NCBI GenBank assembly: GCA_026388095.1
Contig: JAPLKL010000039.1
Coordinates: forward strand, 1-60,140
Reading direction: 5' to 3'
Source of the DNA: Elusimicrobiota bacterium
GTDB taxonomy: Bacteria; Elusimicrobiota; Elusimicrobia; UBA1565; UBA9628
DNA: 60,140 bases
Below the pieces are notes generated by a model, which was not told the DNA's origin, did no database searches, and was given only the letters and a program-made list of their open reading frames with translations. Numbering within the stretch: the stretch's first letter is position 1; every line of letters begins with the position of its first letter. The translations under genes were made by a program, and so were the position numbers. Shown in pieces: positions 1,826 to 29,382 of this stretch.

Positions 1826-1834
1826 TGCTAGAAT
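1826..1834 (+). promoter_or_regulatory. Extended -10 promoter element of the Rieske operon
   Basis: TGCTAGAAT has the extended -10 form TGnTAnnnT. It ends exactly 10 bases before the ATG at 1845, so transcription should start within about 4 bases of the start codon. The same nine bases, at the same spacing, precede the multiheme gene at 31148. There is no Shine-Dalgarno sequence. Confidence 0.5.
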
Positions 1835-1844
1835 TCTTATAGGC

Positions 1845-2279: not shown

Positions 2280-3334
2280 ACGAGCTTGGGACCGCGCTGC
2301 TGGACTGGTTAGACGAGCGGCTGGACATCCGCCGCGGCATAGAGTGGGCCACACACAAGCAGGTGCCCATCCACCGCTGGAGCGTGTTCTACTATGCCGG
2401 CGGGGTGTGCCTCTTCCTCTTCCTCCTTCAGTTGGCCTCAGGCATCCTTCTGCTCATGTACTATCGCGTGGGCGCGGATTCCTCCTATGAGAGCGTCCGC
2501 TACATCTCCTCCAAGGTCGCCTTCGGCTGGCTGATCCGCTCCATCCACAGCTGGGGCGCCAACATCATGATCTTCTGCGTCTTCGTCCACATGTTCAGCG
2601 TGTTCCTCATGAAGGCCTTCCGCAAGCCCCGGGAGCTGACCTGGGTGACCGGCTGCGTCCTGCTGGGGCTCTGCATGGCCTTCGGCTTCAGCGGCTACCT
2701 GCTGCCCTGGAACGAGCTCGCCTACTTCGCGACCAACGTGGGGACCGACATCATCGGTCAAGTCCCCGTGGCGGGCCACTGGCTGCTCAAGCTCGTGCGC
2801 GGGGGCAACGACGTCACGGGCGCGACCCTGTCCCGGTTCTTCGGCCTGCACGTGGCCATACTGCCCGCCCTGCTCTCCCTGACCATCGGGGCCCACCTGA
2901 CCTTCGTGCAGGTCCAGGGCATGGCCCATGCCGATGAGAGCCCCAAGACCATGCCTTTCTTCCCGAACTTCTTCCTGCGCGACGTCATGCTCTGGCTGGT
3001 GGTGCTCAACGCGGTGGCGGTCCTGGCGGTGTTCTTCCCCTGGGAGCTGGGCAAGAAGGCGGAGGCCCTGGCCTCCGCGCCGGCCGGGATCAAGCCCGAA
3101 TGGTATTTCCTCTCCCAGTACCAGTTCCTCAAGCTCCTGCCCGGCAAGGTCCTCTTCATCCCCGGCGAGCTGCTGGGCATCATCGCGCTCAACGCGGCGG
3201 GCCTGTTCTGGCTGCTCACGCCTTTCTGGGACGCGGTCGTGCCGCAGGAGAAGAAGGAGGCCGCGGTGCGCCTGGTCGGCTGGGGCGGTCTGGCCGCGCT
3301 CCTCGCCATGACCATCTGGGGGCGGTTCTCATGA
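2276..3334 (+). CDS. Cytochrome b, full-length (b6 plus subunit IV fused)
   Basis: This 352-residue membrane protein is the diheme b subunit that oxidises quinol together with the Rieske protein. Heme ligands are visible as H91/H105 and H192/H207. The second pair has 14 residues between its histidines, as in b6f-type cytochromes. The PEWY motif of the quinol-oxidation site is at residues 274-277. The N-terminal four-helix part and the C-terminal subunit-IV part lie on one chain. ATGA overlaps on both sides tie it to the Rieske and nonaheme genes. Confidence 0.95.
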   Translation: MNELGTALLDWLDERLDIRRGIEWATHKQVPIHRWSVFYYAGGVCLFLFLLQLASGILLLMYYRVGADSSYESVRYISSKVAFGWLIRSIHSWGANIMIFCVFVHMFSVFLMKAFRKPRELTWVTGCVLLGLCMAFGFSGYLLPWNELAYFATNVGTDIIGQVPVAGHWLLKLVRGGNDVTGATLSRFFGLHVAILPALLSLTIGAHLTFVQVQGMAHADESPKTMPFFPNFFLRDVMLWLVVLNAVAVLAVFFPWELGKKAEALASAPAGIKPEWYFLSQYQFLKLLPGKVLFIPGELLGIIALNAAGLFWLLTPFWDAVVPQEKKEAAVRLVGWGGLAALLAMTIWGRFS

Positions 3335-7710: not shown

Positions 7711-8802
7711 CTGCCCGGAGCCCTCATCATCCTCGCCTGCCTGCTCGCGCCGGCAGGCGCGGCCAGCGGGGCCGGCCAGCCGGCCGCCTTCCAGCGTCAC
7801 GCGGCGCTCTTCCTGATGAAATGCGCCAAATGCCACACGATCGGCGGCGGCCAGCGCGTCGGGCCCGACCTGCGCGGGGTCGCCGACCGCCACGAGGCCG
7901 ATTGGATCGTCGGCTTCGTCATGAACCCCGACGGCTACCTCGAGACCGACCCCGCCGCCAAGAAGCTGCTGGCCGACAACAACGGCGTGCGCATGGAGAA
8001 CACGCACCTGACGCGCGAGCAGGCCCAGGGCCTCCTCGAGTTCCTCAAGGCCGCTTCGAAGAGCCCACTAGCCTCCCCGCAGGCCGACTCGCGCCGCGCC
8101 GAAGAACCGCTTTACAGGAAGGTGCGCATGCCCGACGAGGGCCTGAGCGTCTCCGCGCCGGGCCTCGCCCTGCTGTTCCTGCTGCTGGCCGCGGTGGCCG
8201 TACTTTGGCAGTCCGGCCAACGGCGCTTCGCGGCGCTGGGTTTCGCCGCCGCCCTGGCCGCGGGGTATTGGACCCTCGGCGGGCGGCGCTATTACCATCT
8301 GCTGGGCAACCAGCAGGGCTACGAGCCCATCCAGCCCATGGCCTTCTCGCACGCCCTGCACGCCGGACGCCTCTCGATCTCATGTCTCTACTGCCACTCG
8401 GGCGCCGAGCGCAGCGACGTCGCCGGAGTGCCCGCTCTCAACGTCTGCATGAACTGCCACGTCGCCGTGCGCGCGCGCTCCGGCAGCAAGGAGCCCTCCC
8501 CCGAGATCACGCGGCTCGTCGCGGCCTGGCAGGAGCGCGGCCGGCCCGGGGCGTCCCCGCTCGAGTGGATGCGGGTGCACCACCTGCCCGACTTCGTCCA
8601 TTTCAGCCACCGCGTCCATGTCGCCGACAACCTGCAGTGCCAGGAGTGCCACGGGCCCGTGCAGACGATGGAGCGCCTGCGCCAGGCCGCCTCGCTGTCG
8701 ATGGGCTGGTGCATATCCTGCCACCGCCTGGAGGAAGGGACCGCGCCGGCGCACTGGAAACGCGTCGGTGGGCCGCTCGACTGCGCGGCCTGCCATTGGT
8801 GA
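7711..8802 (+). CDS. actA: Alternative complex III subunit ActA with an extra N-terminal cytochrome c domain (hexaheme)
   Basis: Residues before the membrane helix form a small class-I cytochrome domain (CAKCH). After the helix comes the usual pentaheme ActA part: CLYCH, CMNCH, CQECH, CISCH and CAACH. The first standard start (ATG 7816) lies two codons before the first heme cysteine and would leave no signal peptide. The same frame is open upstream and encodes a signal-like stretch, PGALIILACLLAPAGAA. No ATG, GTG or TTG is present there, so a CTG near 7711 is my tentative start. The periplasmic hemes should pass electrons out of the complex. Confidence 0.85.
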   Translation: MPGALIILACLLAPAGAASGAGQPAAFQRHAALFLMKCAKCHTIGGGQRVGPDLRGVADRHEADWIVGFVMNPDGYLETDPAAKKLLADNNGVRMENTHLTREQAQGLLEFLKAASKSPLASPQADSRRAEEPLYRKVRMPDEGLSVSAPGLALLFLLLAAVAVLWQSGQRRFAALGFAAALAAGYWTLGGRRYYHLLGNQQGYEPIQPMAFSHALHAGRLSISCLYCHSGAERSDVAGVPALNVCMNCHVAVRARSGSKEPSPEITRLVAAWQERGRPGASPLEWMRVHHLPDFVHFSHRVHVADNLQCQECHGPVQTMERLRQAASLSMGWCISCHRLEEGTAPAHWKRVGGPLDCAACHW

Positions 8803-8811
8803 GAGAGTGCG

Positions 8812-11724
8812 ATGACCGATAGAGAACGTCTTGAACGCGGGAAGCAGGACCGGGCCGACGGGATCACGCGCCGGGATTTCCTGAAGATGCTGGGCGCGGG
8901 CTTCGCCGCGCTGGCCGCCGCGGGCTGCAAACTGCGCCCTCCGAAGGAGGCCATCGTCCCGTACGCCGACCAGCCCGAGGGCGCGCCGCCGGGAGTGTCG
9001 CGCTGGTACGCCTCGACCTGCGGCGGCTGCCCGTCGGCCTGCGGCGTCCTCGTCAAGAGCCGCGACGGCCGGCCGATCAAGATGGAGGGCAACCCCGACC
9101 ACCCTCTCTCCCGCGGCGGCCTCTGCGCGCGCGGGCAGGCGACGGTGCTCGACCTCTACGACAGCGAGAGGCTCAGGCAGCCGCTCGCCGGCGCCTCGCC
9201 CGCCTCGTGGCCCGAGGTCGACGCGGCCGTGCGCGCCGGCCTCGCGAGCGCCCGGCGCGAGGGCCGGGAGATACGCGTCGTCTCCCATGCCGTCGTGAGC
9301 CCGTCGCTCCAGGCGGCGGTGGCGGGCTTCCTCGGGCGCTTCCCGGGCGCGCGCCATGTCGTCTACGACTCCCTGCCCGCGGCGGCGATCATCGAGGCGC
9401 ACCGGCGCACGCATGGGCGCCCCGTCCTGCCGCATTATCTCTTCGGGAGCGCCCGCGCGATCGTGAGCTTCGACGCGGACTTCCTGGGCACCTGGATATC
9501 CCCGGTGGAGTTCGCGAAGGCCTGGGCGGCCAACCGCCGCCCCGAAGAGATCATGTCCTGGCACGCCCAGTTCGAAGCGCGCCTGTCGGCGACGGGCGCC
9601 AACGCGGACCTGCGCGTGCCGCTGCGCCCCTCCCAGGAGCTCGCCGCAGCCCTCGCCCTGGGCCGGCTCGTCGCCAGCGGCGTCTCTTGGCCCGGCCCTC
9701 TGCCCGCCGCGCCCGCCCCGGCGCCGGTCGCTGACGGGACGCTGCGGCAGACGGCGAAGATGCTGCTGAGCGTCCGCGGCCGAGGCCTCGTCGTCAGCGG
9801 CTCCGCCGACCCGGCAGTCCAGACCGTCGTCAATTGGATCAACGGGATGCTGGGCAATTACGGCCAGACGCTGGACATCTCGCGCCCCTCGCTGCAGCTG
9901 CAGGGAGAGGCCGGGGCCATGGACCGCCTGATCGCGGAGCTCGAGGCGGGCTCGGTCGGCGCGCTGATCGTGCTCGACGCCAACCCCGCGCAGGACCATG
10001 CGCGCGCAGGGGAATTCGCCGCGGCGATGGCGAAGGCGGGGCTGACCGCCGTGCTGTCCCAGCGCCGGGACGAGACCGCCTCGCTGGCGAAGTTCGTCTG
10101 CGTGACCCCGCACGCGCTCGAGTCCTGGGACGACGCCGAGCCCGTGGCCGGCGTCGTGAGCCTCACGCAGCCTCTGCTGTCGCCCCTCTTCGACACGCGC
10201 CCGGCCATCGAGAGCCTTCTGGCCTGGTCGGGACGACCCGGACCGGCCTTCGAGTTCATACAGGAACGCTGGCGGGCCAAGGTCTTCCCCCGTCAGAAGG
10301 ACATCCGCAGCTTCACGGCCTTCTGGGACGAGGCCCTGCGCCGCGGAGCCGTGTCGATCAGCGCCGCCGCCCGGCCCGCCGCCGCTTTCGACGCCGGCTC
10401 CCTGGCTGGACTCAGACCCGCGCGCCGCGCCAAGGCGGGCGCTTTCGAGCTCGTCCCGTACGCGGGGGTCGCCCTCGGCGATGGCCGCCAAGCCAACAAC
10501 CCGTGGCTCCAGGAATTGCCCGATCCCGTGACCAAGGTCTCCTGGGGCAATTGCGCCTGCCTTTCTCCAGCGGACGCCGCCCGGCTCGGCGTCGCGGAGG
10601 GCCGCATGGTCCGGCTTTCCGCCGGCGGCCGGGCGCTGGACCTGCCGGCCTACGTCCAGCGCGGCCAGGCCGACGGCGTCGTCGCGGTCGCGCTCGGCTA
10701 CGGGCGCAAGGCCGCCGGCCCGGTCGCGGCCAATTTCCCCACGGTCAAGTTCCTGCCCATCGAAGAGGACCCCGCCGGGGGCGGCGACGTCTACCCCCTC
10801 TGCGCCGCGGAGACGGTCTCGGTCACGCCGCTGCCTGCCACCGTCCAGCTCGCCAAGACCCAGCTCTTCGACTCGCAGGAAGTGCCCTTCACGGGCGAAA
10901 AGCGCCGCGCCCTGCGCGAGACGACGCTTCGGGGCTATGCCAAGGAGCCTGTCGAGGCGAGCGCTTCGGAGGAGGCGGCCTCCGGGAACGGCCTCTGGCC
11001 CCGACACGACTACAAGGGCCGCAAGTGGGGCTTGGCCATCAACCTGACCGCCTGCACCGGCTGCTCGGCCTGCGTGGTGGCCTGCCAGGCCGAGAACAAC
11101 ATCCCGGTCGTCGGCAAGGCCGAAGTGCGCAAAAGCCGCGAGATGCACTGGCTGCGCATCGACCGGTATTTCTCCGGGGCCCCGGACGCCCCGAACCCCG
11201 GCATCGCCTTCCAGCCCATGCTCTGCCAGCACTGCGACAACGCGCCGTGCGAGACCGTCTGCCCCGTCCTGGCCACCGTCCACTCGACGGAGGGCCTCAA
11301 CATGCAGGTCTACAACCGCTGCGTGGGCACGCGCTATTGCGCCAACAACTGCCCGTTCAAGGTGCGCCGTTTCAACTGGTTCGACTACCGGCACCGGGAC
11401 CTGCTCCAGAACCTGGCCCTCAACCCCGACGTCACGGCGCGCACGCGCGGCGTCATGGAGAAATGCTCGCTCTGCGTCCAGCGCATCTACTCGGCCAAGT
11501 TCGAGGCCGACAGCGCGGGGCGCGCGCTCAAGGACGGCGACATCACTCCGGCCTGCGCGCAGAGCTGCCCCGCCGACGCGATCGTCTTCGGGGACCTCAA
11601 CGACCCGCAGAGCCGCGTCTCGCGCCTGGCGCGGGCCAACCACAGCTACCGGGTCCTCTCGGAGCTCGGCGTCGGGCCCTCGGTCTTCTACCAGGTCAAG
11701 GTGCGCAACATGAGGGAGGCCTAG
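8812..11724 (+). CDS. actB: Alternative complex III subunit ActB (molybdopterin-like plus iron-sulfur domain)
   Basis: This 970-residue protein is the large peripheral subunit. It starts with a Tat signal ([13 protein letters not shown]). An N-terminal molybdopterin-oxidoreductase-like part carries a CGGCPSACG...CARG cysteine set. From about residue 735 there is a four-cluster ferredoxin-like domain with [35 protein letters not shown] and CSLC...CAQSC. In ACIII the two domains are fused like this, and it sits between actA and actC as usual. It relays electrons from the membrane subunits to the hemes. Confidence 0.95.
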
Positions 11725-11725
11725 G

Positions 11726-13102
11726 ATGGCCCACGTCCTCTCCTCTTTGCGCCGCCCCCTGATCGGGGGCGCCAAATCCTACGCGCGGGTGACCGAAGAC
11801 ATCTGCGCGCCGCTCGAGGGGAGGCCGACGCGCGCCTGGTACGCCGCGATCGCGGTTTCCGCGACCGCCCTGCTCATCGGCGCCGTCGCCGTCACGGACC
11901 AGATCTGGACCGGGATCGGGACCTGGGGGCTCAACAAGACGGTGGGCTGGGCTTTCGACATCACGAACTTCGTCTTCTGGGTCGGCATCGGCCACGCCGG
12001 CACCCTGATCTCGGCGGTGCTGTTCCTCTTCCGCCAGCGCTGGCGCACCTCGGTCAACCGCTCGGCCGAGGCCATGACCATATTCGCGGTCATGTGCGCC
12101 GGGACCTTCCCGCTGATCCACATGGGCCGGCCGTGGCTCGCCTATTGGGTGCTGCCCTACCCCAACCCGATGGGCCCGCTGTGGGTCAATTTCCGCTCGC
12201 CCCTGCTCTGGGACGTCTTCGCCATCAGCACCTACTTCACCGTCTCCCTGGTCTTCTGGTACATGGGCCTCCTGCCCGACCTTGCCGTCGTCGCGCGCCG
12301 CGCCGAGGGCTGGCGCAGGCGCGTCTTCGCGGGCCTGAGCCTCGGCTGGGACGGCTCCCAGAAGACCTGGCTGCATTACGAGAAGGTCTACCTTCTGCTC
12401 TCGGGCCTGGCGACGCCGCTGGTCTTCTCCGTGCACACCATCGTGAGCTTCGATTTCGCCACCTCGGTCATCCCGGGCTGGCATTCGACGATCTTTCCGC
12501 CCTATTTCGTCTGCGGCGCGATCTTCTCGGGCTTCGCGATGGTGATGACGCTGATGATCATCGCGCGCAAGGTCATGGCCTTCGAGGACTACATCACGCT
12601 GGCGCATATCGACGCGATGTGCAAGATCACCCTGCTGACCTCGCTGATCGTGGCTCTGGCCTACGGCACAGAGTTCTTCATGGCCTGGTACAGCGGCAAC
12701 CCCTACGAGCGCTTCGCCTTCCTCAACCGCTTCTTCGGCCCCTACCGGCACTTCTTCATGGGCATGATGCTCTGCAACGTCGCGGTCCCGCAACTGCTGT
12801 GGTCGCGGCGCGTGCGGACCACCCCTTGGGCCGTCTTCGCGGTCTCCATCCTGATCAACGTGGGCATGTGGCTGGAGCGCTTCGTGATCATCACGGTCTC
12901 CCTGCACCGCGACTACCTGACTTCGAGCTGGACGATGTACCACCCGACCTACATCGAGGTCTGCACCCTCGTCGGCAGCTTCGGCCTTTTCCTGACCCTT
13001 TTCCTGCTGTTCTGCCGGTTCCTGCCGATGATCGCCGTCAGCGAGGTCAAGGGCGTCCTGCATTACGCCCGCGAAGGAGACGGAGGCCCCCATGGCCCAT
13101 GA
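11726..13102 (+). CDS. actC: Alternative complex III membrane subunit ActC (NrfD-like)
   Basis: This 458-residue protein has about ten predicted membrane helices and is the NrfD-family quinol-binding subunit of ACIII. Conserved features include the [14 protein letters not shown] segment near residue 90 and HMGRPW near 133. It starts one base after actB ends, with GGAGG inside the end of actB. It overlaps actD by 11 bases. Quinol oxidation at the periplasmic side of this subunit is known for ACIII. Confidence 0.95.
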
Positions 13103-13613
13103 ACTCGTCGCCGGGGTCTTTGACTCGGAGGAGAGAATCCTGGCCGCCGCGCGCGCCGCGCGGCGCGCGGGCCTGCCGATCCACGACGCCTATACCCCCT
13201 TCGCCGTCCACGGCCTCGACCGGGAGCTGGGCCTGGAGCCCTCGCATCTGGGCGTGGTCTGCTTCCGCTTCGGCGCCGCGGGCCTCATCCTGACGCTGGG
13301 CTTCCAGTATTGGGCCTCTACCTTCGATTGGCCCATGAACATCGGCGGCAAATCCCTCAACGCCTCTCCGGCCCTCATCCCCGTCGCCTTCGAGCTCACC
13401 GTCCTGTTCGCCGGGGTCGGGATGGTGCTCTGGTTCCTCGCGATGCGGGGCCTCTCACCGGTCAAGAAGCCCGCGCTCGAGGCGCTCGGAGGCGTCGACG
13501 ACCGCTTCGTCCTAGCCCTGCGCCGGGAGCCCGGCGGCCCCTCGGGCGAGGCGCTCCGACGATTCCTAGAGGCGCAGGGCGCGCAGCTCGTCGTGGACGC
13601 GGAGGGCTCGTGA
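13092..13613 (+). CDS. actD: Alternative complex III subunit ActD
   Basis: This 173-residue protein matches the small ActD subunit (DUF3341 type). An N-terminal soluble part ([20 protein letters not shown]) precedes two membrane helices around residues 55-75 and 92-117. ActD anchors the complex and contacts ActC. It overlaps both actC and actE, the latter through GTGA. Confidence 0.93.
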
Positions 13614-15946
13614 GGCGCTTCCTCATACCCGCGGCGCTCCTGGCGGGCGCCGTCGCCGTGCTCCTCGTCCGGCGCGACCTCAACGAGCCGCATCTGAGGC
13701 TGTTCAGCGACATGGTGAACTCGCCCGCCTATCACAGCCAGCAGCCCAACCCCGTGTTCCGGGACGGCCGGACGCTGCAGCGGCCCGTTCCCGGGACGAT
13801 CGCCCGCGACTGGCATCCCCTGCACTACGGCGTCGAAGCGGCGGAGCGCGAGCGCGCGGGAGCGGAACTCAAGAACCCGTTCCTGCCGGGCTTCGAGGTC
13901 ACGGCTCGCGGCAAGCAGGTCTTCGAGAACTACTGCTCTCATTGCCACGGGCTCGCGGGGCTGGGAGACGGGGAGGTCGCCAAGGCTTTCCCGCAATTCT
14001 CATTCCCGCTGGCCTCCAAGTCGACCTTCGACCTGCCCGACGGGACGCTGTTCCACATCATCACCTACGGGCGCAACCTGATGCCCTCGCACGCCTCCCA
14101 ACTCGACCCGCCGGACCGCTGGAAGGCCGTCTGCTACCTGCGCGACCTCCAGCGCGAGGAGATCGCCCGGCTCGGGCCCGCAGCGGTCATCCCCGAGGAC
14201 CCGCGCCGGCGCTCGCTGGTCTCGGAGCCTTACGGCAAGGAGCTCTTCGCGATGAACTGCGCCTCCTGCCACGGCGAGGAGGGGCGCCGCCCCAATCCGG
14301 GCATACCGACGCTCAACTCGCCCGCCGTGCTCGCCATCGCGGACGACGCCTACTACTGGGACATCATCAATCACGGCCGGCCGGGCACGCAGATGCCGGC
14401 CTGGAAGAACGTGCTGACCGGGACGCAGATGCGGAGCATCGTGATGCACATACGCTCATGGGCCGGCCGCGTTCCGGAGACCGCGCGCATCACCTCCGCC
14501 GAAACGGCCGTCGAGCGGGGCCGCGCGATATTCGCCAGCCACTGCATCGGCTGCCATGGTCCCGCGGGGCGGGGCGGCATCGGCAACTCGCTGAACGCCC
14601 CGTCGTTCCTGGCGCTGGCTTCGGACCTGTTCCTGCGGCAGACCATCTCTCTGGGCCGCCGGCACACGGCGATGCCGGCCTCCTTCGACCTCAAGGGCGA
14701 CGATATCTCCGACCTGATCTCCCTCATCCGCTCCTGGGCGGCTCCCGCCCCGCCCTACGCCGAGGTGGCCGCGCTTCTCCCCGGCGCCTCGCCCCAGGCG
14801 GGGAAGACGCTTTTCGAGAAGAAATGCGCGGGTTGCCACGGGGCCAACGGCGAGGGGGCGATCGGCTCGCGGCTCAACTCGGAATCTTTCCTGGCCATGG
14901 CCGGCGACGAGCTCCTTTACAGGGCGATCGTCGAGGGCCGTCCCACCGAGATGCCGGCCTGGCGTTCGCTGGGCGCGCGCGAGGTCGCCGACGTCATCTC
15001 GCGCATCCGCTCCTGGCAGAAGGGGCCCTCGGTGGCCCTTTCGACGCAGACCCACCAGGGCCGCCCGGAGTTCGGAGAGGTCCTCTACAAGCAGGAATGC
15101 GTCAAATGCCACGGCCTCCAAGGCGAGGGTGACCTGGGGACCCAGATCGGCAACCCCGTCCTGCTCGGCCAGCTCAGCGACGACTTTCTCTGGCGCACGG
15201 TCGCTTACGGCAAGGGCGACACCGAGATGAAGGGCTTCCTCAAGCGCGCGCGCAACCCCCTGAGCGGCGACGATATCGACCACATCATCGCTTTCGTGCG
15301 GCGGCTGGAACGCACGCCGCCCGCCGAGCCGCTGAGGCGGCATTACTCCTGGGCCTCGGCGAAAGACGGCCGCAAGGTGTACGAGCAGAAAGGCGGCTGC
15401 ATGAAATGCCACGGCGCGCAGGGGGAGGGCGGCAGCGGGCCGTCGCTGGGCAACCCGGCCTTCCTTAAGACGGTCTCGGACGGCTTCCTGGCCGGCACGG
15501 TCATCCTGGGCCGGGAGGTCACGCCGATGAAGTCGTACTATAGCGGCGAAACGCGCCTCGCGGGAGAGGACATCGAGAACGTCATCGGCTACATACGGAC
15601 CTTCGAGAACGCCGCGGCGCCGGCTGTAAGGCGCGTCGAGAGCACTCCCGAGCTCGTGGCCGCGGGGCGGGTCCTCTACCGCGAGACCTGCGCGAAATGC
15701 CACGGCCTGGAGGGCAAGGGCAAGCATGAGAACAAGCCGGAGGGCTTCGCGCCGTCGCTCAACAACGAGCAGTTCCTCAAGGCCGCCGACGACAACTTCC
15801 TGCTCGCCACGATCGCGCTCGGCCGCCCCGGCACTCCGATGCGCGCCTTCGGCGACGGGATGGGGGGCAGGCCCGGGCTCTCCGCCGAGCAGATCCGCAG
15901 GATCGTGGCCTTCTTGAGGTCGTGGGAGTGGGGGACGAAACGATGA
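13610..15946 (+). CDS. actE: Alternative complex III subunit ActE, heptaheme multi-domain version
   Basis: Typical ActE is a roughly 200-residue membrane-anchored monoheme cytochrome. This one is 778 residues. After an N-terminal signal/anchor ([19 protein letters not shown]) and the ActE-type domain (CSHCH) it adds six further class-I cytochrome c units: CASCH, CIGCH, CAGCH, CVKCH, CMKCH and CAKCH. Each has a methionine (for example QMPAW, EMPAW, PMRAF) as likely sixth ligand. The units look like tandem duplications. The GTG start at 13610 overlaps actD (GTGA) and has GGAGG 5 bases upstream. It may act as a long periplasmic electron wire from ACIII. Confidence 0.9.
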   Translation: MRRFLIPAALLAGAVAVLLVRRDLNEPHLRLFSDMVNSPAYHSQQPNPVFRDGRTLQRPVPGTIARDWHPLHYGVEAAERERAGAELKNPFLPGFEVTARGKQVFENYCSHCHGLAGLGDGEVAKAFPQFSFPLASKSTFDLPDGTLFHIITYGRNLMPSHASQLDPPDRWKAVCYLRDLQREEIARLGPAAVIPEDPRRRSLVSEPYGKELFAMNCASCHGEEGRRPNPGIPTLNSPAVLAIADDAYYWDIINHGRPGTQMPAWKNVLTGTQMRSIVMHIRSWAGRVPETARITSAETAVERGRAIFASHCIGCHGPAGRGGIGNSLNAPSFLALASDLFLRQTISLGRRHTAMPASFDLKGDDISDLISLIRSWAAPAPPYAEVAALLPGASPQAGKTLFEKKCAGCHGANGEGAIGSRLNSESFLAMAGDELLYRAIVEGRPTEMPAWRSLGAREVADVISRIRSWQKGPSVALSTQTHQGRPEFGEVLYKQECVKCHGLQGEGDLGTQIGNPVLLGQLSDDFLWRTVAYGKGDTEMKGFLKRARNPLSGDDIDHIIAFVRRLERTPPAEPLRRHYSWASAKDGRKVYEQKGGCMKCHGAQGEGGSGPSLGNPAFLKTVSDGFLAGTVILGREVTPMKSYYSGETRLAGEDIENVIGYIRTFENAAAPAVRRVESTPELVAAGRVLYRETCAKCHGLEGKGKHENKPEGFAPSLNNEQFLKAADDNFLLATIALGRPGTPMRAFGDGMGGRPGLSAEQIRRIVAFLRSWEWGTKR

Positions 15947-17106
15947 CTGCCGCGGACAAGGGACTGCTCGGCGCCGGCCAGAAGGACCTCCTGCTCCGGA
16001 TCGCCGCGGCGGGGCTGTTGGCGCTGGCCGGGGGCTGCTATTTCGTGCCCGCGCGCGCCTTGGGCTGCCTGCTGGTCGCGAATTTCTTCTTCATTTCCTT
16101 AAGCCTCGGGGCCTTGGTCTTCATCTCCGCGCAGAACCTTTCTTCCGCCGGCTGGCCCGTCGTGTTCCGGCGCGTCCCCGAGGCGATGACCGCTTATCTG
16201 CCGGCCGGCGCGGTATTGACCGCGGTCCTGCTGGCCTCGGCGCGCAGCCTCTATCCGTGGGCGGCGCCGGGCGCCGCGGCCGCGCTCGGCTCTAAAGCGG
16301 CCTACCTCGGCATCTGGAGCGCGGCGGCGAGGGCGGCCGTATATTGGGCGGCTTGGCTGTTCTTCGCGCGCCGCCTCGTTTCCCTTTCGCGAGAGCAGGA
16401 CTCCGGAGGCGGGGCCGGGACGACAGTCCGCGCCAAGGCTCTTTCAGCGGGTTTTCTCCTCTGCTTCGGGGTCACCTTCACGCTCTGCTCGGTGGACTGG
16501 CTCATGTCTCTTGAGCCGAAATGGGACAGCACGATCTATCCGTGGTATATCTTCGCGGGGGCTTTCGAGGCGGCTCTGGCGGCCCTCATCGCCCTGGTCG
16601 TGGCGCTGCGGCGGCGCGGGCTGCTTGCCGAGGTCAACGAGCACCATCTGCACGACCTGGGCAAGTACCTCTTCGCTTTCAGCGCTTTCTGGGCCTACCT
16701 ATGGTTCTCGCAGTTCCTGCTGATCTGGTACTCGAACCTGCCCGAGGAGACGACGTTCTTCGCGCTCCGCCTCACCGGCGCATGGGGCAGGCTTTTCTGG
16801 CTCATGCCGGTCGTCAATTTCGCCGTCCCCTTCGCGCTGCTCCTCCCGGCGGCGCGGAAAAAGCGCGACGGGCTCCTGCTCTGGGCGGCGGGCCTGCTTC
16901 TGGCGGGGCATTGGCTGGACCTGTACATCCTCGTGATGCCGCCCGTGCTCGGCCCGAGGCCCGCCTTCGGGTTTCTGGAACTCGTGGTCTTCGCGGGCCT
17001 GGCCGCGGCGTTCCTGCTGCTCTTCGACCGGGCCTTCCGCGAGGCCGGAGCGATGCCGGCCAGCGACCCTTACCTCGAAGAAAGCATCCATTTCGAGGGC
17101 GCCTAA
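15943..17106 (+). CDS. actF: Alternative complex III membrane subunit ActF
   Basis: This 387-residue protein with about ten membrane helices is the second large membrane subunit of ACIII, related to ActC. Recognisable segments include VDWLMSLEPKWDSTIYPWY and AFWAYLWFSQFLLIWYSNLPEE. The ATG at 15943 overlaps the actE stop (ATGA). It is the last gene of the operon. In many bacteria cytochrome oxidase genes follow, but here the next gene is convergent and no oxidase is present in the window. Confidence 0.94.
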   Translation: MTAADKGLLGAGQKDLLLRIAAAGLLALAGGCYFVPARALGCLLVANFFFISLSLGALVFISAQNLSSAGWPVVFRRVPEAMTAYLPAGAVLTAVLLASARSLYPWAAPGAAAALGSKAAYLGIWSAAARAAVYWAAWLFFARRLVSLSREQDSGGGAGTTVRAKALSAGFLLCFGVTFTLCSVDWLMSLEPKWDSTIYPWYIFAGAFEAALAALIALVVALRRRGLLAEVNEHHLHDLGKYLFAFSAFWAYLWFSQFLLIWYSNLPEETTFFALRLTGAWGRLFWLMPVVNFAVPFALLLPAARKKRDGLLLWAAGLLLAGHWLDLYILVMPPVLGPRPAFGFLELVVFAGLAAAFLLLFDRAFREAGAMPASDPYLEESIHFEGA

Positions 17107-17136: not shown

Positions 17137-18807
17137 CTACAGCTTCGGAGCCGCGCTGCCGTCGTGGCACTTGGCGCACTGCGTCTTATAGTCCCGCCGC
17201 AGAGGCACGCGCTTGTGGCCGCCGATGTCGTGGCAGTCCACGCAGCCCGCCATCTCGGTATGAGCCATGTGCGGCATGGTCTTGCCGGCATAGCGCACGG
17301 TCTCGGGAGGGACCTTCACGCCGATGCGGCCGTGGCACTGCTTGGCGCAGTAAGCGCCCGAAAGCATGGACTCAGACGATATATCCGGCAGGTCCGCCTT
17401 GAGCCGCCGGCCGGCCTCTCCGAGCTCGCGGTCGATCGCGCGCAGGATGACCGAAGCCAGGTAGATGTTGTGTTCCCCATGCGCCGCGCGCAGGAATGCG
17501 AGGAGCCGCTCGGCCCGCCGCACTCCCGCGCGGGCCTCGGCGGACTGCGGAGACTGCTTGGCCAGGGCCGCGCGGGCGGCCGCCAGCTTCTCGGCGGCCT
17601 TGGCCAGGGCCGAGGCGAGCTCCGCGTGCATCTCTTCGATTATGCCCCGGAACTTGGCGCCGTGGCACTTGACGCAGGAATCCTGCGAAGGCTTCATGGT
17701 GCGGCCGCTGAAATCCGCGGCCGCCTTGTTCTCGCCCTGATAGTGGCAGCCGTTGCAGTCCACATGGGCCAGGTACATGGGGCTGGGGAGCTCCGGCAGG
17801 GACCCGAGCTCCGGCCGAGGCTTGCCTGAATAGAGCTGCAGCTGGCTGAGGTGCTTGTCCTCATGGCAGAGGCTGCAGTCGAAGACTAGGCTCGGCGGAT
17901 GCCTGTCGGACTCCGGCGCCGGCGCGGGAACCGCGGCCTGCTGTCCGGGAAGCGTGAGCGGCTGCTCCGACTTCGGGAACCCATGCCTCATCTCTTCGTG
18001 GCAGTGGAAGCAGGCGATATTGTGCTTGGTGACATGGTTGTCGTGGATGAACGGGATATCGCCGTAGCGCGAGAGCTTCTCGGGCTGGTTGTGGCAGAGC
18101 AGGCACCGGTCTTCGGGCGCCCGGCCCTTGCCCTGCACCGCCTCGACGTGGCAGTTCTGGCAGGAGATCCCCTGGCGCGTGACGAAGTCCCGGTGGTTGT
18201 AGGTCATGTTGCCCAGCTTGAACGACCGGGTGGGCAGCTCGTGGCAGCCCAGGCAGCCGCCGAGCGGCTCAAGCTTGCGGCCCTCGCCACGGCCCCGGAA
18301 ATGGCACAGGAAGCAGGTGTCGTAGGTCACCTCGATGTGCTTGCCCACCACCACCTGGGAATGGCAGGAGACGCAGCGCAGTTGGCGGCCGCGGCGCCGC
18401 TCGGTGATGTGCGGCCGGTGGTCGAAGCGGACGCCGCCCTTGGTGACCACCTTCCCCTGGAGCAGGCGCGTGGAGTGGCAGCCGGAGCGCAGGCAGGATT
18501 CGTCGTTGACCTCGGCGAAGGGCTTCGAGGAATAGGTGCGGGTGACGTACTTGACCACCTGGGAGAGGGCCTGGAATTTCTTCCAAAGCAGGGTTTTCGG
18601 GGAGCCGGGCGGATAGTGGCACTCCACGCAGGCCACGTGGTTGTGCTTGGAGGAATGCCAGGCCTTGTAGTACGGCTCCATGATGTGGCAGGAGCGGCAG
18701 AAAACCGGGCTCGTGGAGTACTTCATCAGCCCGGCCAAGACCAGGATGCCGGCAAGTCCGACCCCGGCCAGGATCTTGAGGAGACGGGGCTCGACGCGCA
18801 TCCTCAT
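17137..18807 (-). CDS. NapC-like anchored multiheme cytochrome with about 15 heme motifs
   Basis: This 556-residue protein has an N-terminal anchor helix (ILAGVGLAGILVLAGLM) followed by CRSCHIM, the NapC/NrfH-type first heme. Thirteen CxxCH motifs are present, plus two with longer loops: CLRSGCH (CX4CH) and CAKQCH (CX3CH). A heme-free helical insert lies at roughly residues 345-455. The start at 18807 overlaps the NrfD gene stop (ATGA); the open frame extends further upstream but lacks cytochrome features. As last gene of a tetraheme/FeS/NrfD operon it probably carries quinone-derived electrons into the periplasm. Confidence 0.88.
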   Translation of the reverse strand: MRMRVEPRLLKILAGVGLAGILVLAGLMKYSTSPVFCRSCHIMEPYYKAWHSSKHNHVACVECHYPPGSPKTLLWKKFQALSQVVKYVTRTYSSKPFAEVNDESCLRSGCHSTRLLQGKVVTKGGVRFDHRPHITERRRGRQLRCVSCHSQVVVGKHIEVTYDTCFLCHFRGRGEGRKLEPLGGCLGCHELPTRSFKLGNMTYNHRDFVTRQGISCQNCHVEAVQGKGRAPEDRCLLCHNQPEKLSRYGDIPFIHDNHVTKHNIACFHCHEEMRHGFPKSEQPLTLPGQQAAVPAPAPESDRHPPSLVFDCSLCHEDKHLSQLQLYSGKPRPELGSLPELPSPMYLAHVDCNGCHYQGENKAAADFSGRTMKPSQDSCVKCHGAKFRGIIEEMHAELASALAKAAEKLAAARAALAKQSPQSAEARAGVRRAERLLAFLRAAHGEHNIYLASVILRAIDRELGEAGRRLKADLPDISSESMLSGAYCAKQCHGRIGVKVPPETVRYAGKTMPHMAHTEMAGCVDCHDIGGHKRVPLRRDYKTQCAKCHDGSAAPKL

Positions 18808-20027
18808 GCGGACGGCGACTTGGCGGCCCGGGCGGAGCCCCCGTGCGCCCAAGGCGGGAGAAGATAGAGCAGCGCAGCCAGGACGAACAAAGGCAGGACC
18901 GTGAGGACCGCCGCGGCCAGGAGGCCCTCCCGGCCAGCCAGCTCCAGCTTGTAGGTGGTGAAGCCGCGCAGACTCTTGGAGAAGAGCTGTCCGCCCATCA
19001 CCACGTTCCAACGCATGGCGAGTATCCCGATCAAGGAAAGACCGGCGGAGACCGCGTAGCAGGCCCGCCGCACCCGCTCCGGGAAGAGGAACAGCTGATT
19101 GAGCCCCAGAACCAGCATGGGGACCAGCGAGCCCATGGCGATCTGCACGATGAACATGCTGATGAAGAGCTTGCCTTCGACGAGCAAAGTGATGATGTCG
19201 AAGTGGTCCTTGGCCTCATAGGCGGTCTGGATGGTCTCCAGCATCTCCAAAGAGAAGGCCACGATGATGGCGGTGAGCAGATACTTGGCCACCGTATCCA
19301 GGCAGGGCATGTCGATAGGCACCCGGCGCAACCGGCACAGGAACATGTAGATGAGCAGCACCCCGGCGATGCCCGAGGCCATGGCCGAGAACAGGAAGAT
19401 GACCGGCATCAGCGGCGTGGACCACCAGGGGTTGGCCTTGAGCGAGCCGAAGATGAAGCCCACGTAGCCGTGCAGGAGCACGGCCGAGGGCAGGCCGATG
19501 ACCGTGATGGCCTTGCCCAGCTTGTCGTCGATCTCCAAAGACCGCGGCGAGATGTTGGTCACCCCGAAGGTCAGCACCTTATAGAAGAGACGCTTCGGCC
19601 AGAAAGCCTCCGTCCGCGACCACTCCACGATCTCCCGGCGATAGTCCAGCCATATCTCCATGAGGAGCACGGCCATCAGGTACCAAGTGTAGACGAAACC
19701 GAACATGGCCATGGCCGAGGAGGTGTTCGGAGTCATGAAGATCTCCAAGGACCTCTCGGGATGCCCCAGATGCGCCTGCAGCGGCAAGGGCGCGATGAGC
19801 AGGAAAGCCAGGGCCGTGAGCAGCGAGAGCCGGTAGGTCGGCTTGACCGCGGCGACGTTGAAGACCCGCTCCAGCGAGGCCAGGATGAAGGCTCCGGCGA
19901 CCAGGCCGGTGAGGTAAGGATAGAGGACGATGAGCACGCTCCACTGCAGCTCCAGCTCGTTGGGGTAGATGAAGCCGGTGACATGGGGCAGGGCGGCGCG
20001 CAAAGACTCCAGGAGGCCTGCTGGCAT
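18804..20027 (-). CDS. NrfD/PsrC-family membrane quinone-interacting subunit
   Basis: This 407-residue protein with about ten membrane helices belongs to the NrfD/PsrC family. The segment APLPLQAHLGHPERSLEIF around residue 77 is typical of long NrfD proteins. It starts in a TGATG overlap with the iron-sulfur gene and overlaps the 15-heme gene by 4 bases. In such complexes this subunit exchanges electrons with the quinone pool and passes them through the iron-sulfur subunit to cytochromes. The gene set recalls the Geobacter CbcSTU type. Confidence 0.9.
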   Translation of the reverse strand: MPAGLLESLRAALPHVTGFIYPNELELQWSVLIVLYPYLTGLVAGAFILASLERVFNVAAVKPTYRLSLLTALAFLLIAPLPLQAHLGHPERSLEIFMTPNTSSAMAMFGFVYTWYLMAVLLMEIWLDYRREIVEWSRTEAFWPKRLFYKVLTFGVTNISPRSLEIDDKLGKAITVIGLPSAVLLHGYVGFIFGSLKANPWWSTPLMPVIFLFSAMASGIAGVLLIYMFLCRLRRVPIDMPCLDTVAKYLLTAIIVAFSLEMLETIQTAYEAKDHFDIITLLVEGKLFISMFIVQIAMGSLVPMLVLGLNQLFLFPERVRRACYAVSAGLSLIGILAMRWNVVMGGQLFSKSLRGFTTYKLELAGREGLLAAAVLTVLPLFVLAALLYLLPPWAHGGSARAAKSPSA

Positions 20028-20785
20028 CAGCGCACCTCCTTGTCCAGGCCCTTATAAGCCACCTTGGGCTCGGTCCCCATCTCAGGCCTGAGCACCATGA
20101 GCCTCTCCGTCTCCATGAACTTCGAGATCGCGCTCGCCGGGTCGCTGCGGTCGCCGAACATCCTGGTCCCGGTCGGGCAGACCTCCACGCAGGCGGGCCG
20201 CAAGCCCTTTTGGATGCGATGGTAGCAGAGCGTGCACTTGTCCGCGACCTGCAGCACGGGATGGAAGTAGCGCGAGCCGTAAGGACAGGCCTGGACGCAG
20301 TAGCGGCAGCCGATGCAGTACTTGCGGTCCACCATGACCACCCCATCCTCCGTCTTGTAGCTGGCGCCCACCGGGCAGACCTGGACGCAGGGCGAATGCT
20401 CGCACTGGTTGCAGAGCTTGGGTACGAAGAAGCTCTTGGAGACCTCGCCCGGGTCGCGCACGGGCGGGTAGCCGTCCTGGCCCCCGTTGGGCGAATCAAC
20501 GTTGGTCTCGCCGCTGCGCCGGATCACGTAGCGCTCCACCCAGGTGCGGAAATAGAACGGCTCGCGGGGCACGTCGTTCTCGGTCTTGCAGGCGCCCACG
20601 CAGCGCGCGCAGCCGATGCACTTGGTGGTGTCGATGGCGTAGGCCCAGTAGGGCTTCTTCCTCTTCCAAGGCGGCTCGTGGAAGAACTTCTCCGCGGCGG
20701 CCAGCGGCGCGGCCACGGCGCGGCCGGCCAGAGCCAATGCCGTCAAGGCGGCGCTCTTGAGGAACTGCCTGCGGCTCATCATCAT
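20027..20785 (-). CDS. Tat-exported 4x[4Fe-4S] ferredoxin-type subunit (NrfC/HybA-like)
   Basis: This 252-residue protein begins with a Tat signal (SRRQFLKSAALTALAL). Four cysteine sets are visible: CIGCARCVGAC, CNQCEHSPCVQVC, CIGCRYCVQAC and CTLCYHR...ACVEVC. It is the electron-relay subunit that partners NrfD-type membrane proteins. It lies between the tetraheme gene (4-base overlap) and the NrfD gene (1-base overlap). It would sit on the periplasmic face. Confidence 0.93.
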   Translation of the reverse strand: MMMSRRQFLKSAALTALALAGRAVAAPLAAAEKFFHEPPWKRKKPYWAYAIDTTKCIGCARCVGACKTENDVPREPFYFRTWVERYVIRRSGETNVDSPNGGQDGYPPVRDPGEVSKSFFVPKLCNQCEHSPCVQVCPVGASYKTEDGVVMVDRKYCIGCRYCVQACPYGSRYFHPVLQVADKCTLCYHRIQKGLRPACVEVCPTGTRMFGDRSDPASAISKFMETERLMVLRPEMGTEPKVAYKGLDKEVR

Positions 20786-21237
20786 GGTTTCGGGTTATGC
20801 GGGTTATGGCATTGGCTGCAGGCCACGCCGGGGTTGTGCTGCGCAAGGTCCTGCTGGGGGAACTTGGCCGGCCGGGAGATGTTCCGGGCGTGGCAGATCC
20901 CGCAGAAGGCGCGCATGTCCGCCTCCTTGGGTTTGACTGCCTTGACGGCCTTGGGATTCTGGGCGTGGGCCAGCAGCGCGCCGTGGCAGCTCTCGCAATG
21001 CACGCCGCGATGGCCTGCGCCGGCCTTGGCCTTGGCCTGCTCCGGGTGGCAGCGCAGGCAGGCCGGCTCGCCCGCGTAGTGCAGGGGCATAGACGCCATC
21101 TCCGTCGCGGCCGCGGCGCGGTAGTGGCCGTACTTGCCGAAGGTCTCCGGGACCAGGAAATGGCGCGCGGCGAAGAAGGCGGATATCACCAGGACGAAGA
21201 CCGCGGCCACGCGCAGGAGATGTTCGATGTCTTTCAT
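20782..21237 (-). CDS. Membrane-anchored tetraheme cytochrome c
   Basis: This 151-residue protein has an N-terminal helix (VAAVFVLVISAFFAARHFLV) and four heme motifs: CLRCH, CESCH, CGICH and CSQCH. It is the first gene of the minus-strand tetraheme/FeS/NrfD/15-heme operon. It probably connects the iron-sulfur subunit to periplasmic carriers, as the small cytochrome does in Qrc/Cbc-type complexes. Two TATGAT boxes (21266-21261 and 21261-21256) lie upstream, and an FNR-type palindrome sits 61-66 bases before the predicted start sites. Confidence 0.9.
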   Translation of the reverse strand: MKDIEHLLRVAAVFVLVISAFFAARHFLVPETFGKYGHYRAAAATEMASMPLHYAGEPACLRCHPEQAKAKAGAGHRGVHCESCHGALLAHAQNPKAVKAVKPKEADMRAFCGICHARNISRPAKFPQQDLAQHNPGVACSQCHNPHNPKP

Positions 21238-21426: not shown

Positions 21427-24108
<2,682 letters not shown>

Positions 24109-24109
24109 G

Positions 24110-25345
<1,236 letters not shown>

Positions 25346-25356
25346 AAGGCCCAGGC

Positions 25357-26091
25357 TCAGACGTCGGGGACGTCGGTGATCAATTCGACCATATTGGCCG
25401 ACCGCTTGTCCTGGGGATTGCAGCGCAACGCCTCCCGGAAGGCCTTCACCGCGTCGGTGTTGCGGTTGAGCCCGAAGAGCGCCAGGCCCAGCTTGTACCA
25501 GGCCGTAGCGGAGCCGTTGCTGAACCGCACCAGGTTCTGGAGCAGTCCGAGCGCCTCCTGGAACCGCGCTTCCTGCAGATAGGTCTCGGCCATATGGTAG
25601 AGCACGATCCGCGTCTCCGGGCTGAGCTCATGGACCTTTTGGAAATGGCCCAAAGATTCCTCGGAATGGCCCTTATGGTAATGAGCGAATCCCAGATAAT
25701 AATGCGCCATGGCCAGTTCCGGGTTGCAGTCGAGCGCCAGCTCGAGCTCCGAGATGGCGTCGTCGAGCCGGGCCAGCCGGTAGTAAGCGATGCCCAGGCG
25801 CAGATGGGTCACGGCCAGGTCCGGCCGGATCTCCAGGGCTTTCTTGTAGATCCCGATGGACTGGAGCACGAACCCCTCGCTGAAGCAGAGGTTCGCGAGG
25901 CTGTCCCAGGACCAGAAATCGCCGGGATCGCGCCGCAAGCGCTCCTCCAGGAGCGCCACCATCTCCTTGAGCTTCTTGTTCTGCGGGGGGATCCAGACGC
26001 AGGCCTTCTCGACGTCGATCGCCAGGTCATCGGGCACGGGTCTCCTCGTTCGCACTTGGCCTCCAAAGCTCGGACATTCCAATGGCTCCAT
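25357..26091 (-). CDS. TPR-repeat protein, probably cytoplasmic
   Basis: This 244-residue protein has no signal peptide and five or six tetratricopeptide units from about residue 50 to 235 (for example [57 protein letters not shown]). TPR domains mediate protein contacts. Its place between pckG and icd suggests a role with central-carbon enzymes or their regulation, but nothing in the sequence defines the partner. GAGG inside the end of pckG serves as ribosome site. Confidence 0.85.
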
Positions 26092-26096
26092 GGTTC

Positions 26097-27899
26097 TTAT
26101 CCTCCCTGAGGCACCGGCACCGCGCTGCCGCTTAGACGCCAGGCCAAAGCCTCCCGCTGCCAGACCAGTTCGATGGGCAGCCTGGGGCCCAGCGAGCCGA
26201 GGAACGTCTCATGCTCCGCGAGCTCCGCCCTCCAATCCTCCTGCCGCACCGCCAGCAATTCCTCCAGCGCCGGCCGAGGCAGGTCCAGCCCTTCGAGATC
26301 GAGACCATCGAAAGTCGGGACGAATCCGATGGGCGTGCTGCGCGCCTTGCCCTCGCCGCGGCATCGTCCCAGGATCCACTCCAGGACCCGGGCGTTGTCC
26401 CCGTACCCGGGCCACAGGAAGCGCCCGCCCGCATCCGTCCGGAACCAGTTCACGTGGAAGATCTTGGGCGGGTGGGAGAGCTTCTTGCCCATGGCCAGCC
26501 AGTGGGCGAAGTAATCGGCCACGTTGTAGCCGCAGAACGGCAGCATGGCCATGGGGTCGCGCCTGACCTCTCCCTGCTTGCCGACCTGGGCGGCCGTGCG
26601 CTCGGAAGCCATGGTGGCGCCGACATAGACCCCATGCTCCCAGTTGAAGGACTGGTAGACCAGAGGGGCCAAGCGCGCCCGGCGGCCGCCGAAGACGATC
26701 GCGGAGATGGGCACTCCCTGCGGGTCCTCCCACTTGGGTGAGATGCAGGGGCATTGCCGGGCCGGGGCCGTGAACCGGCTGTTGGGATGCGCTCCCAGGA
26801 TCGCAGCGCCCTTCTCGTCCTTCATCCCCGGCTTCCAAGCCTGCCCCCGCCAGTCCTTCCCCGAGGCCGGAGGCGCCCCGTCGCCCGATTCCCACCAGAC
26901 CGAGCCATCGTCTCCCAGGACCACGTTGGTGAAGATGGTGTTGCGCTGCACCGTAGCCACGGCGTTGGGATTGCTCCGGGAGTTGGTGCCCGGCGCCACC
27001 CCGAAGAACCCCGCCTCCGGGTTCACCGCCCAGAGCCGCCCGTCCGGTCCGATGCGCAGCCAGGCGATGTCGTCGCCCACGGTCCAGACCTTGTAGCCGT
27101 TGGCCTTCATGCCTGCGGGCGGGATGAGCATGGCCAGGTTGGTCTTGCCGCAGGCGCTGGGGAAAGCCGCGGCCACGTACTCGACTCGGCCCTGGGGATC
27201 TTCGACTCCCAGGATGAGCATGTGCTCCGCCATCCAGCCTTCCCGACGGGCAAGGGCGCTCGCGATGCGCAAAGAAAGGCATTTCTTGCCCAGGAGCGCG
27301 TTGCCGCCGTAGCCCGAGCCCACGCTCCAGATGGCGTTGTCCTCCGGGAAGTGCAGGATGAGCCGGCGCTTGTCATCCAGGTCCGCCTTGCCGTGCAGGC
27401 ACTTGGTGAACTCCCCGTCCGTTCCCAGCTGTTCCAGCACCGGGGTCCCCACGCGCGTCATGATGCGCATGTTGAGGACCACGTAGATGGAATCGGTCAA
27501 CTGCACGCCGATCTTGGAGAACGGAGAGCCCACCGCGCCCATGGAGAAGGGGATGACGTACAGCGTGCGGCCTTTCATGGAGCCGCGGAATATATCCCCG
27601 GCCCGGCGGTAGCCCTCGTCCGGGGACATCCAGTTGTTGGTCGCGCCGGCGTCAGCCTTGTCCTTCGTGCAGATGTAAGTCAGATGCTCGGTGCGGGCCA
27701 CGTCATTGGAGGCGGTGCGGTGGTAGAGACAGCCGGGGAATCTCTGCGCGCTCAGGCGGATGAGCTCTCCCGAGGCCACGGCCTCGGCCTCCAGCCGCTC
27801 CTTCTCGGCCTCGGAGCCGTCGAGCCATACCACGCGGTCCGGCCCGCAGAGCTCCGCCATCTCGCGGACCCACGTCTCAAGTCTCGCGTGCTGGCTCAT
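26097..27899 (-). CDS. pckG: Phosphoenolpyruvate carboxykinase (GTP)
   Basis: This 600-residue enzyme interconverts oxaloacetate and PEP using GTP/GDP. The P-loop FPSACGKTNLAMLIPP, the early FPGCLYHRTASNDVARTE region and the manganese-site segments are characteristic of the GTP-dependent family. Length is normal. Its start overlaps the gltA stop (ATGA), linking it to the TCA operon. It could serve gluconeogenesis or anaplerosis. Confidence 0.96.
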   Translation of the reverse strand: MSQHARLETWVREMAELCGPDRVVWLDGSEAEKERLEAEAVASGELIRLSAQRFPGCLYHRTASNDVARTEHLTYICTKDKADAGATNNWMSPDEGYRRAGDIFRGSMKGRTLYVIPFSMGAVGSPFSKIGVQLTDSIYVVLNMRIMTRVGTPVLEQLGTDGEFTKCLHGKADLDDKRRLILHFPEDNAIWSVGSGYGGNALLGKKCLSLRIASALARREGWMAEHMLILGVEDPQGRVEYVAAAFPSACGKTNLAMLIPPAGMKANGYKVWTVGDDIAWLRIGPDGRLWAVNPEAGFFGVAPGTNSRSNPNAVATVQRNTIFTNVVLGDDGSVWWESGDGAPPASGKDWRGQAWKPGMKDEKGAAILGAHPNSRFTAPARQCPCISPKWEDPQGVPISAIVFGGRRARLAPLVYQSFNWEHGVYVGATMASERTAAQVGKQGEVRRDPMAMLPFCGYNVADYFAHWLAMGKKLSHPPKIFHVNWFRTDAGGRFLWPGYGDNARVLEWILGRCRGEGKARSTPIGFVPTFDGLDLEGLDLPRPALEELLAVRQEDWRAELAEHETFLGSLGPRLPIELVWQREALAWRLSGSAVPVPQGG

Positions 27900-29320
27900 T
27901 GCGCGGCCTCCCCGGACTCCGGGACGCGCAGGTCCCGCTGCTCCAGCGGGACGTAATGCCGCGTCTGCTCGCCGATATAGATCTGGCGGGGCCGCGCGAT
28001 GCGCTTGGCGGCATCGTCATGCTGCTCCTTCCACTGCGCGATCCAGCCGGGCAGGCGCCCGATGGAGAACATGACCGGGAACATATTGGTGGGGATGCCG
28101 ATGGCCCGCATGATGATGCCGCTGTAGAAGTCCACGTTCGGATAGAGCTTCTTCTCGATGAAATACGGGTCCTTGAGGGCCAGTTCCTCGAGCCTCATGG
28201 CGATGTCCAGCAGAGGGTCTTGGATGCCGAGCTTGCCCAGCACGCGGTCACAGCACTTCTTCATGATCTTGGCGCGGGGGTCGTAGTTCTTGTAGACCCG
28301 GTGCCCGAAGCCCATGAGCCGGAACCCGCTGGCCTTGTCCTTGGCCATGGCGATGCAGTCCTCGGGCTTCTTGTTGCCGCGGTGGATCAGCTCGAGCATC
28401 TCGATGACGGCCAGGTTGGCTCCCCCGTGCAGGGGCCCCCAGAGCGCGCAGACCCCGGAGGCGCAGGAGGCGAACAGGTTGGCCTGGCTGGAGCCCACCA
28501 TGCGCACGGTCGCGGTGCTGCAGTTCTGCTCGTGGTCCGCGTGCAGGAGGAAAAGCAGGTTGAGGGCGTCCTCGACCTCGGGCTCGACCACATAGTCATT
28601 GTAGGGCATGGAGAACATCATGTGCAGGAAGTTGGCGCAGTAGCGCAGGGCAGGGTTGGGGTACATGAGCGGCAGTCCCCGGGAGCGGCGGTAGGAGTAG
28701 GCGGCGACGGTCCGGATCTGGCTGATGACGCGCGCCGCGGCCTGCTCGAAGGTGGTGCCGTTGGTGAGGGTGAAGAACTCCGGATGGAAGCAGGAGATGG
28801 CGTTGATCATGGCGGAGAGCTGAGCCATGGGGGGAGCGCTCACCGGGAAGCCCTCGAAATGGTGCTTCATGCTCTCGTCGAGGTTGGCGTTGGCCGTGCA
28901 GATGGCGCGGAAACGGTCGAGGGCCGCCCGGGTCGGCAACTCCCCGAAGATGACCAGCATGGCGATCTCTAGGAAATCGGGATGGGGGCGGTCGAACTCC
29001 TCGATGGGGATGCCGCGGTAGCGCAGGATGCCCTTCTCCCCGTCGATGAAGGTGATGGCGCTCTTGCAGGAGCCGGTGTTGCCGTAGCCCGGGTCGTAGG
29101 TGATGACCCCGCTCTGGGCGCGCAGCCCGGAGATATCCACGGCCAGCTCTCCCTCCGTGCCTTCCAGCACCGGCAGGGCATAGGTCTTGCCGTCGATGGT
29201 GATGCTGGCCGCGTGCTGCGCCACATCTCCGTTGCTTTGCTGGCAGGCGGCCGGCTTCGGAGCCAGGATCGGCTTCTTCGCGGCTGTCCCACCGGCGGCG
29301 CCTGAGCTCGAATCGGACAT
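27896..29320 (-). CDS. gltA: Citrate synthase
   Basis: This 474-residue enzyme condenses acetyl-CoA with oxaloacetate. It has the Gram-negative hexameric-type layout. The catalytic histidines lie in WGPLHGGANLAVIEML and MGFGHRVYKNYDPRA, and the aspartate in PNVDFYSGI. ATG 29320 is chosen because GGGGAGG lies 7 bases upstream. The first 35 residues are a Ser/Ala-rich extension not usual in GltA. It heads the TCA operon, divergent from the FNR-like genes. Confidence 0.95.
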   Translation of the reverse strand: MSDSSSGAAGGTAAKKPILAPKPAACQQSNGDVAQHAASITIDGKTYALPVLEGTEGELAVDISGLRAQSGVITYDPGYGNTGSCKSAITFIDGEKGILRYRGIPIEEFDRPHPDFLEIAMLVIFGELPTRAALDRFRAICTANANLDESMKHHFEGFPVSAPPMAQLSAMINAISCFHPEFFTLTNGTTFEQAAARVISQIRTVAAYSYRRSRGLPLMYPNPALRYCANFLHMMFSMPYNDYVVEPEVEDALNLLFLLHADHEQNCSTATVRMVGSSQANLFASCASGVCALWGPLHGGANLAVIEMLELIHRGNKKPEDCIAMAKDKASGFRLMGFGHRVYKNYDPRAKIMKKCCDRVLGKLGIQDPLLDIAMRLEELALKDPYFIEKKLYPNVDFYSGIIMRAIGIPTNMFPVMFSIGRLPGWIAQWKEQHDDAAKRIARPRQIYIGEQTRHYVPLEQRDLRVPESGEAAQ

Positions 29321-29382
29321 GTCATCCTCCCCTCGGGGTCGGCCCACGCCTCTTCCCCCCATATAAGCTTACCGGACCCGAA

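Follow-up and report, generated by a model that had tools for sequence, protein, structure and literature searches.

Heme-binding motifs longer than CXXCH are known from the cytochrome MmcA of Methanosarcina acetivorans, which has one CX3CH and one CX4CH motif and in which mass spectrometry identified heme on all seven motif peptides (PMC11024163), and from ImcH of Geobacter, an inner-membrane multiheme protein with a CX3CH site (PMC6295460). In addition, a CxxCHxM motif at heme 1 denotes Met coordination, as in NrfH (PMC10654088), and a three-helix bundle is common to OcwA, NrfA, HAO and MccA (PMC6703420).

Here, we compare these systems with c15, a predicted 15-heme membrane-anchored cytochrome c of 556 amino acids encoded in a 60,140-nucleotide stretch of DNA from an uncultured Elusimicrobiota bacterium (contig JAPLKL010000039.1 of assembly GCA_026388095.1; hereafter, the window). 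The gene runs on the minus strand from an ATG at 18807 to a stop at 17137; a plus-strand reading of 17137-18807 was rejected, as it contains two stops. The original prediction had placed the gene at these same coordinates, which proved correct, and had given no strand. Its motif inventory was reproduced exactly by our count, which found thirteen CXXCH motifs together with one CX4CH (CLRSGCH, site 3, residues 105-111, 18475-18495 on the minus strand) and one CX3CH (CAKQCH, site 13, residues 487-492, 17332-17349 on the minus strand), making fifteen. All 30 cysteines of the protein lie within these motifs, leaving none free, and the remaining multiheme proteins in the window have CXXCH motifs only. 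The calculated mass of the full-length apoprotein is about 61.7 kDa, to which fifteen hemes (615 Da each) would contribute about 9.23 kDa and thirteen about 8.00 kDa. In combining CX3CH with CX4CH, c15 resembles MmcA, but the latter is a heptaheme protein that has no transmembrane anchor, is associated with Rnf and depends on an archaeal maturation system. ImcH likewise differs from c15 in having its CX3CH next to the membrane, three transmembrane helices and seven hemes.

Modular architecture of c15

The N-terminus of c15 is an uncleaved membrane anchor, seen as a helix at residues 7-31 in the AlphaFold model (18715-18789, minus strand). Overlapping it is an NrfH-like tetraheme module carrying hemes 1-4 (residues 11-152, 18352-18777, minus strand). 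The NapC/NirT Pfam family PF03264 matched residues 12-95 at 36.7 bits, above its cut-off of 24.1, and the PDB structure of D. vulgaris NrfH (2j7a) matched the same end of the protein with an E-value of 8.8e-12. With NrfH, c15 shares the N-terminal membrane helix, hemes 1 and 2, a CxxCHxM motif at heme 1 (present as CRSCHIM) and an invariant lysine in the heme 2 region; it differs in having 15 hemes rather than four and CX4CH at heme 3, and its match to the NrfH equivalog TIGR03153 over residues 11-152 (67.2 bits) does not reach the cut-off of 134.2. The anchored NapC-type first heme that had been predicted is thus borne out, while the accompanying label “NapC-like” suits this module and covers just the first quarter of the protein.

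Beyond this module come the middle hemes and then an NrfA/OcwA-like core (residues 229-474, 17386-18123, minus strand) made up of hemes 8-12 and a three-helix bundle. In a profile comparison, this region aligned to residues 268-500 of OcwA from Thermincola potens (6i5b; E 1.4e-18), and HHalign matched it to the NrfA proteins of relatives with a probability of 95 (E 2.6e-8), with the order of the pentaheme core followed by a bundle bearing an HN motif held in common. The bundle itself (residues 389-469, 17401-17643, minus strand) was modelled by AlphaFold with high pLDDT as helices at 389-417, 423-442 and 448-469, and its His446-Asn447 pair is invariant in 44 of 44 aligned rows. Profile, HHalign and AlphaFold helices all point to a fold of the NrfA/OcwA type, in which the pentaheme core precedes the bundle. 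The “heme-free helical insert” of the original prediction is therefore real as regards its helices, but it is not irrelevant to heme, given the invariant His446-Asn447 and the match to the OcwA/NrfA bundle; for the same reason, we rejected the idea that the insert is a novelty. Relative to OcwA, c15 is anchored in the membrane, carries extra modules on both sides of the core and is without the His-His motif of the OcwA pocket segment. When the entire model, which contains no heme and has moderate confidence scores (pLDDT 75, pTM 0.54), was used in a fold search against the PDB, nothing was found at an E-value of 0.001, the best entries being an octaheme nitrite reductase, NrfH and MccA. The protein closes with a c7-like triheme end carrying hemes 13-15 (residues 484-549, 17161-17358, minus strand; PF14522 Cytochrome_C7, 67.3 bits), which is missing from relatives that have 12 hemes.

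Genomic neighbourhood and proposed role

The gene for c15 closes a minus-strand operon that starts with a small tetraheme cytochrome (20782-21237; four CXXCH motifs, Pfam), followed by a TAT-type Fe-S protein resembling TtrB, DsrO and NrfC in profile matches (20027-20785) and an NrfD-type membrane subunit (18804-20027; PF03916, 133 bits), whose gene overlaps that of c15 by four bases. Directly upstream of this operon lies a minus-strand run of genes for aconitase, a member of the isocitrate/isopropylmalate dehydrogenase family, a TPR protein, PEP carboxykinase and citrate synthase (21427-29362); in the related genome L017, the aconitase-to-citrate synthase run is inverted relative to c15, and the genes for NrfD, the Fe-S protein and the tetraheme cytochrome are lacking there. 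On its other side, c15 is faced by a plus-strand alternative complex III (ACIII) cluster at 7816-17106, in which ActD was recognised by PF11821. The subunit in the ActE position of this cluster (13610-15946, plus strand) contains seven cytochrome c domains and as many CXXCH motifs; the L017 homologue likewise has seven. The plus strand at 2153-4557 encodes a protein of the cytochrome b6 type and then, in an overlapping gene, a nine-heme cytochrome; this pair also lies near c15 in L021, L024 and L026.

Further modules are encoded on the plus strand. A protein that joins an 11-heme cytochrome to a membrane cytochrome b (33855-35981) was identified as CbcL/MtrH-like by motif count and profile matches; adjoining it is a second CbcL/MtrH-like fusion, in which 19 CXXCH motifs are joined to membrane cytochrome b domains (31148-33880). 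MtrAB-like genes lie about 20 kb from c15: they encode a DmsE/MtrA-family decaheme cytochrome (37907-38887; TIGR03508, 235.4 bits against a cut-off of 192.2) and an MtrB-like outer-membrane beta-barrel (38902-40854). The sequence profile of the barrel found no match in the PDB, and the fold search alone gave one: its AlphaFold model, which consists mostly of strands, is closest in fold, among PDB entries, to MtrB of the Mtr complex (6r2q_B, E 7.7e-19, TM 0.66). Across relatives, 24 c15-bearing genomes were searched for a CbcL-like fusion, and in 13 of them it lies at most about 330 bp upstream of c15 on the same strand. Genes for MtrA-like proteins and barrels are frequent neighbours.

The theme common to these neighbours is most likely that of a wire between quinone modules and a path from the periplasm to the cell surface. 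On balance, we think it probable that c15 is an electron wire anchored in the inner membrane and extending into the periplasm, with all fifteen hemes attached and a single ResB/CcsA pair serving all motif spacings. The protein would exchange electrons with quinone-linked membrane modules, namely the NrfD/Fe-S/tetraheme set in this genome and CbcL-like cytochrome b in many relatives. That c15 instead works chiefly within an NrfD/Fe-S quinone complex, as one of its subunits, or hands its electrons to the adjacent ACIII rather than to an outer-membrane conduit, seems unlikely to us. It shares an operon with NrfD and overlaps its gene, and it adjoins the ACIII cluster both in the window and in L017; however, an NrfD partner was found in only seven of the 28 other genomes searched, whereas CbcL-like and MtrA-like neighbours are frequent. 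Since NrfD is missing in the relative G039, we rejected it as an obligate partner.

Conservation, occupancy and maturation of the heme sites

Within the phylum Elusimicrobiota, homologues of c15 turned up in 39 of 341 genomes, representing 18 of 100 genera, and outside the phylum in a few MAGs of Planctomycetota, Verrucomicrobiota, Riflebacteria and others. The close relatives that carry names are MAGs of Elusimicrobia; L017 is the nearest of them (77% identical), and the c15 of G039 is 78% identical to that of the window. Among other genomes, L033 encodes a c15 relative of 721 amino acids with 18 heme motifs (897-3059) in a MAG labelled NOB, and clusters of Planctomycetota and Acidobacteriota (L034, L036, L037 and L038) have a 12-heme relative adjoined by tandem proteins with 12 to 13 CXXCH motifs that also bear CX3CH and CX4CH.

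The CX3CH motif at site 13 is retained in all homologues that cover it. At site 3, CX4CH is retained save in one clade (L022, L025, L029, L035, L061 and L062), in which the site reads CLQCH or CLKCH and is two residues shorter; the CX4CH spacing is thus lost there while the heme site is kept as CXXCH. Such conservation across dozens of homologues led us to reject a chance origin of the two motifs. Because the CXXCH clade is single (support 100/100 in a midpoint-rooted tree) and the 12-heme relatives retain CX4CH at site 3, CX4CH is probably the older state. A genuine heme site is the most natural interpretation of a position that switches to the canonical spacing.

Candidate axial ligands were sought among invariant residues in 44 aligned rows, four of which come from 12-heme relatives, without hemes 13-15. 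Ten histidines outside the motifs are invariant in all 44 rows, the 12-heme relatives included, and three more (513, 516 and 531) are invariant only where hemes 13-15 exist. The resulting thirteen, which were counted and not assigned to individual hemes, equal the number of hemes 3-15, one apiece. Met43 (44 of 44 rows) and Lys77 are invariant as well. Lys77 lies one residue off Lys82 of NrfH in an ungapped alignment, a residue that we take to be the heme 2 ligand of that protein. In the wire model, Met43 would ligate heme 1 in the manner of NrfH, Lys77 would probably do so for heme 2, and one invariant histidine each would serve hemes 3-15, including those at CX4CH and CX3CH.

Given this one-for-one supply of extra histidines, the conservation of the motifs and the change from CX4CH to CXXCH at the same site, both long-spaced sites are probably occupied by heme. 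That heme is attached at the thirteen CXXCH motifs only, with the other two sites empty or binding something else, as the original prediction had allowed, appears very unlikely. In W. succinogenes, dedicated CcsBA proteins serve CXXCK and CX15CH beside a canonical one for CXXCH (PMC10663686), and ordinary System II lyases may thus not accept odd spacings. Against this stand the strong conservation and the same-site change, together with the fact that the extra invariant histidines number thirteen and not eleven; moreover, MmcA shows that both spacings can carry heme, albeit with an archaeal maturation system.

The attachment machinery of this genome comprises a ResB (CcsB-type) maturation subunit (35965-37038, plus strand; Pfam) and a CcsA-type heme handling/lyase subunit (37040-37837, plus strand; TIGR03144, 231.6 bits against a cut-off of 187.6). 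No other PF05140 locus and no other PF01578 match was found in the genome, in a count made on an assembly that is 97.6% complete and from which a second lyase could be missing. G039, which bears both odd motifs, also has a single CcsA (PF01578) match, and the two genomes together support the earlier suggestion of a ResB/CcsA pair tolerant of longer loops. Dedicated ligation enzymes, which had also been raised, are known elsewhere but are not needed to explain this genome, and with one CcsA found we rejected a dedicated lyase for the odd sites. In many of the other genomes with c15, PF01578 matched two or three times, and a second lyase may assist there. The reading with occupied sites and one lyase pair is preferred to that with empty sites, and a single ResB/CcsA pair would then attach heme at CX2CH, CX3CH and CX4CH alike. 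The broader proposition, in which one ordinary pair, without a dedicated lyase, matures a widespread, hitherto uncharacterised single-chain wire built from an NrfH-type start on the quinol side, an NrfA/OcwA-type core that has lost catalysis and a c7 end, carrying heme at all three spacings, is possible and is put forward tentatively.

Electron path and implications

In the wire model, electrons would run from the membrane end along the NrfA/OcwA-type core, which is without the catalytic residues of NrfA, to the c7-like end, from where they would be handed on to periplasmic carriers or to an MtrAB-like conduit. The sequence, its conservation, the modular build, the gene neighbourhood and the single lyase of the assembly were observed, whereas we infer heme occupancy, ligand assignment, and the electron path and its direction in this model. 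The core invites comparison with enzymes. The NrfA family PF02335 gave no match to c15 at an E-value of 0.001 and none in this genome; all sites of c15 end in CH, with no CXXCK, and c15 lacks both the Tyr that follows heme 3 in NrfA and the histidine segment HPE(F/Y)E, the loop being much shorter. Both CxxCHVxY and HPE(F/Y)E are present in the NrfA proteins of relatives (L081, L083 and L084), and membership of c15 in the NrfA family was rejected on these grounds. It is accordingly highly improbable that c15 is a self-contained quinol-dependent reductase of nitrite, hydroxylamine, metal or another acceptor, even though it joins an NrfH-like quinol dehydrogenase to an NrfA/OcwA-type core in a single chain, no NrfA was found in this genome and OcwA, whose hemes are of the CXXCH type, can reduce both nitrite and hydroxylamine (PMC6703420). 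Besides the missing catalytic segments, the number of histidines in c15 is such that no heme other than heme 1 is obviously open.

Within a limited literature search, the combination of modules in c15 appears to be new, while motifs of this kind are already known. In the openly licensed papers searched, we found no direct description of System II acting on CX4CH, and none of an extracellular electron transfer pathway or of cytochromes of this kind in Elusimicrobia. With one lyase pair and three motif spacings in one protein, c15 offers a natural test of the flexibility of System II, for which the sister clade supplies a CXXCH version of the same site. As a putative wire, c15 is also a candidate for the periplasmic step of any extracellular electron transfer that groundwater Elusimicrobiota may carry out.
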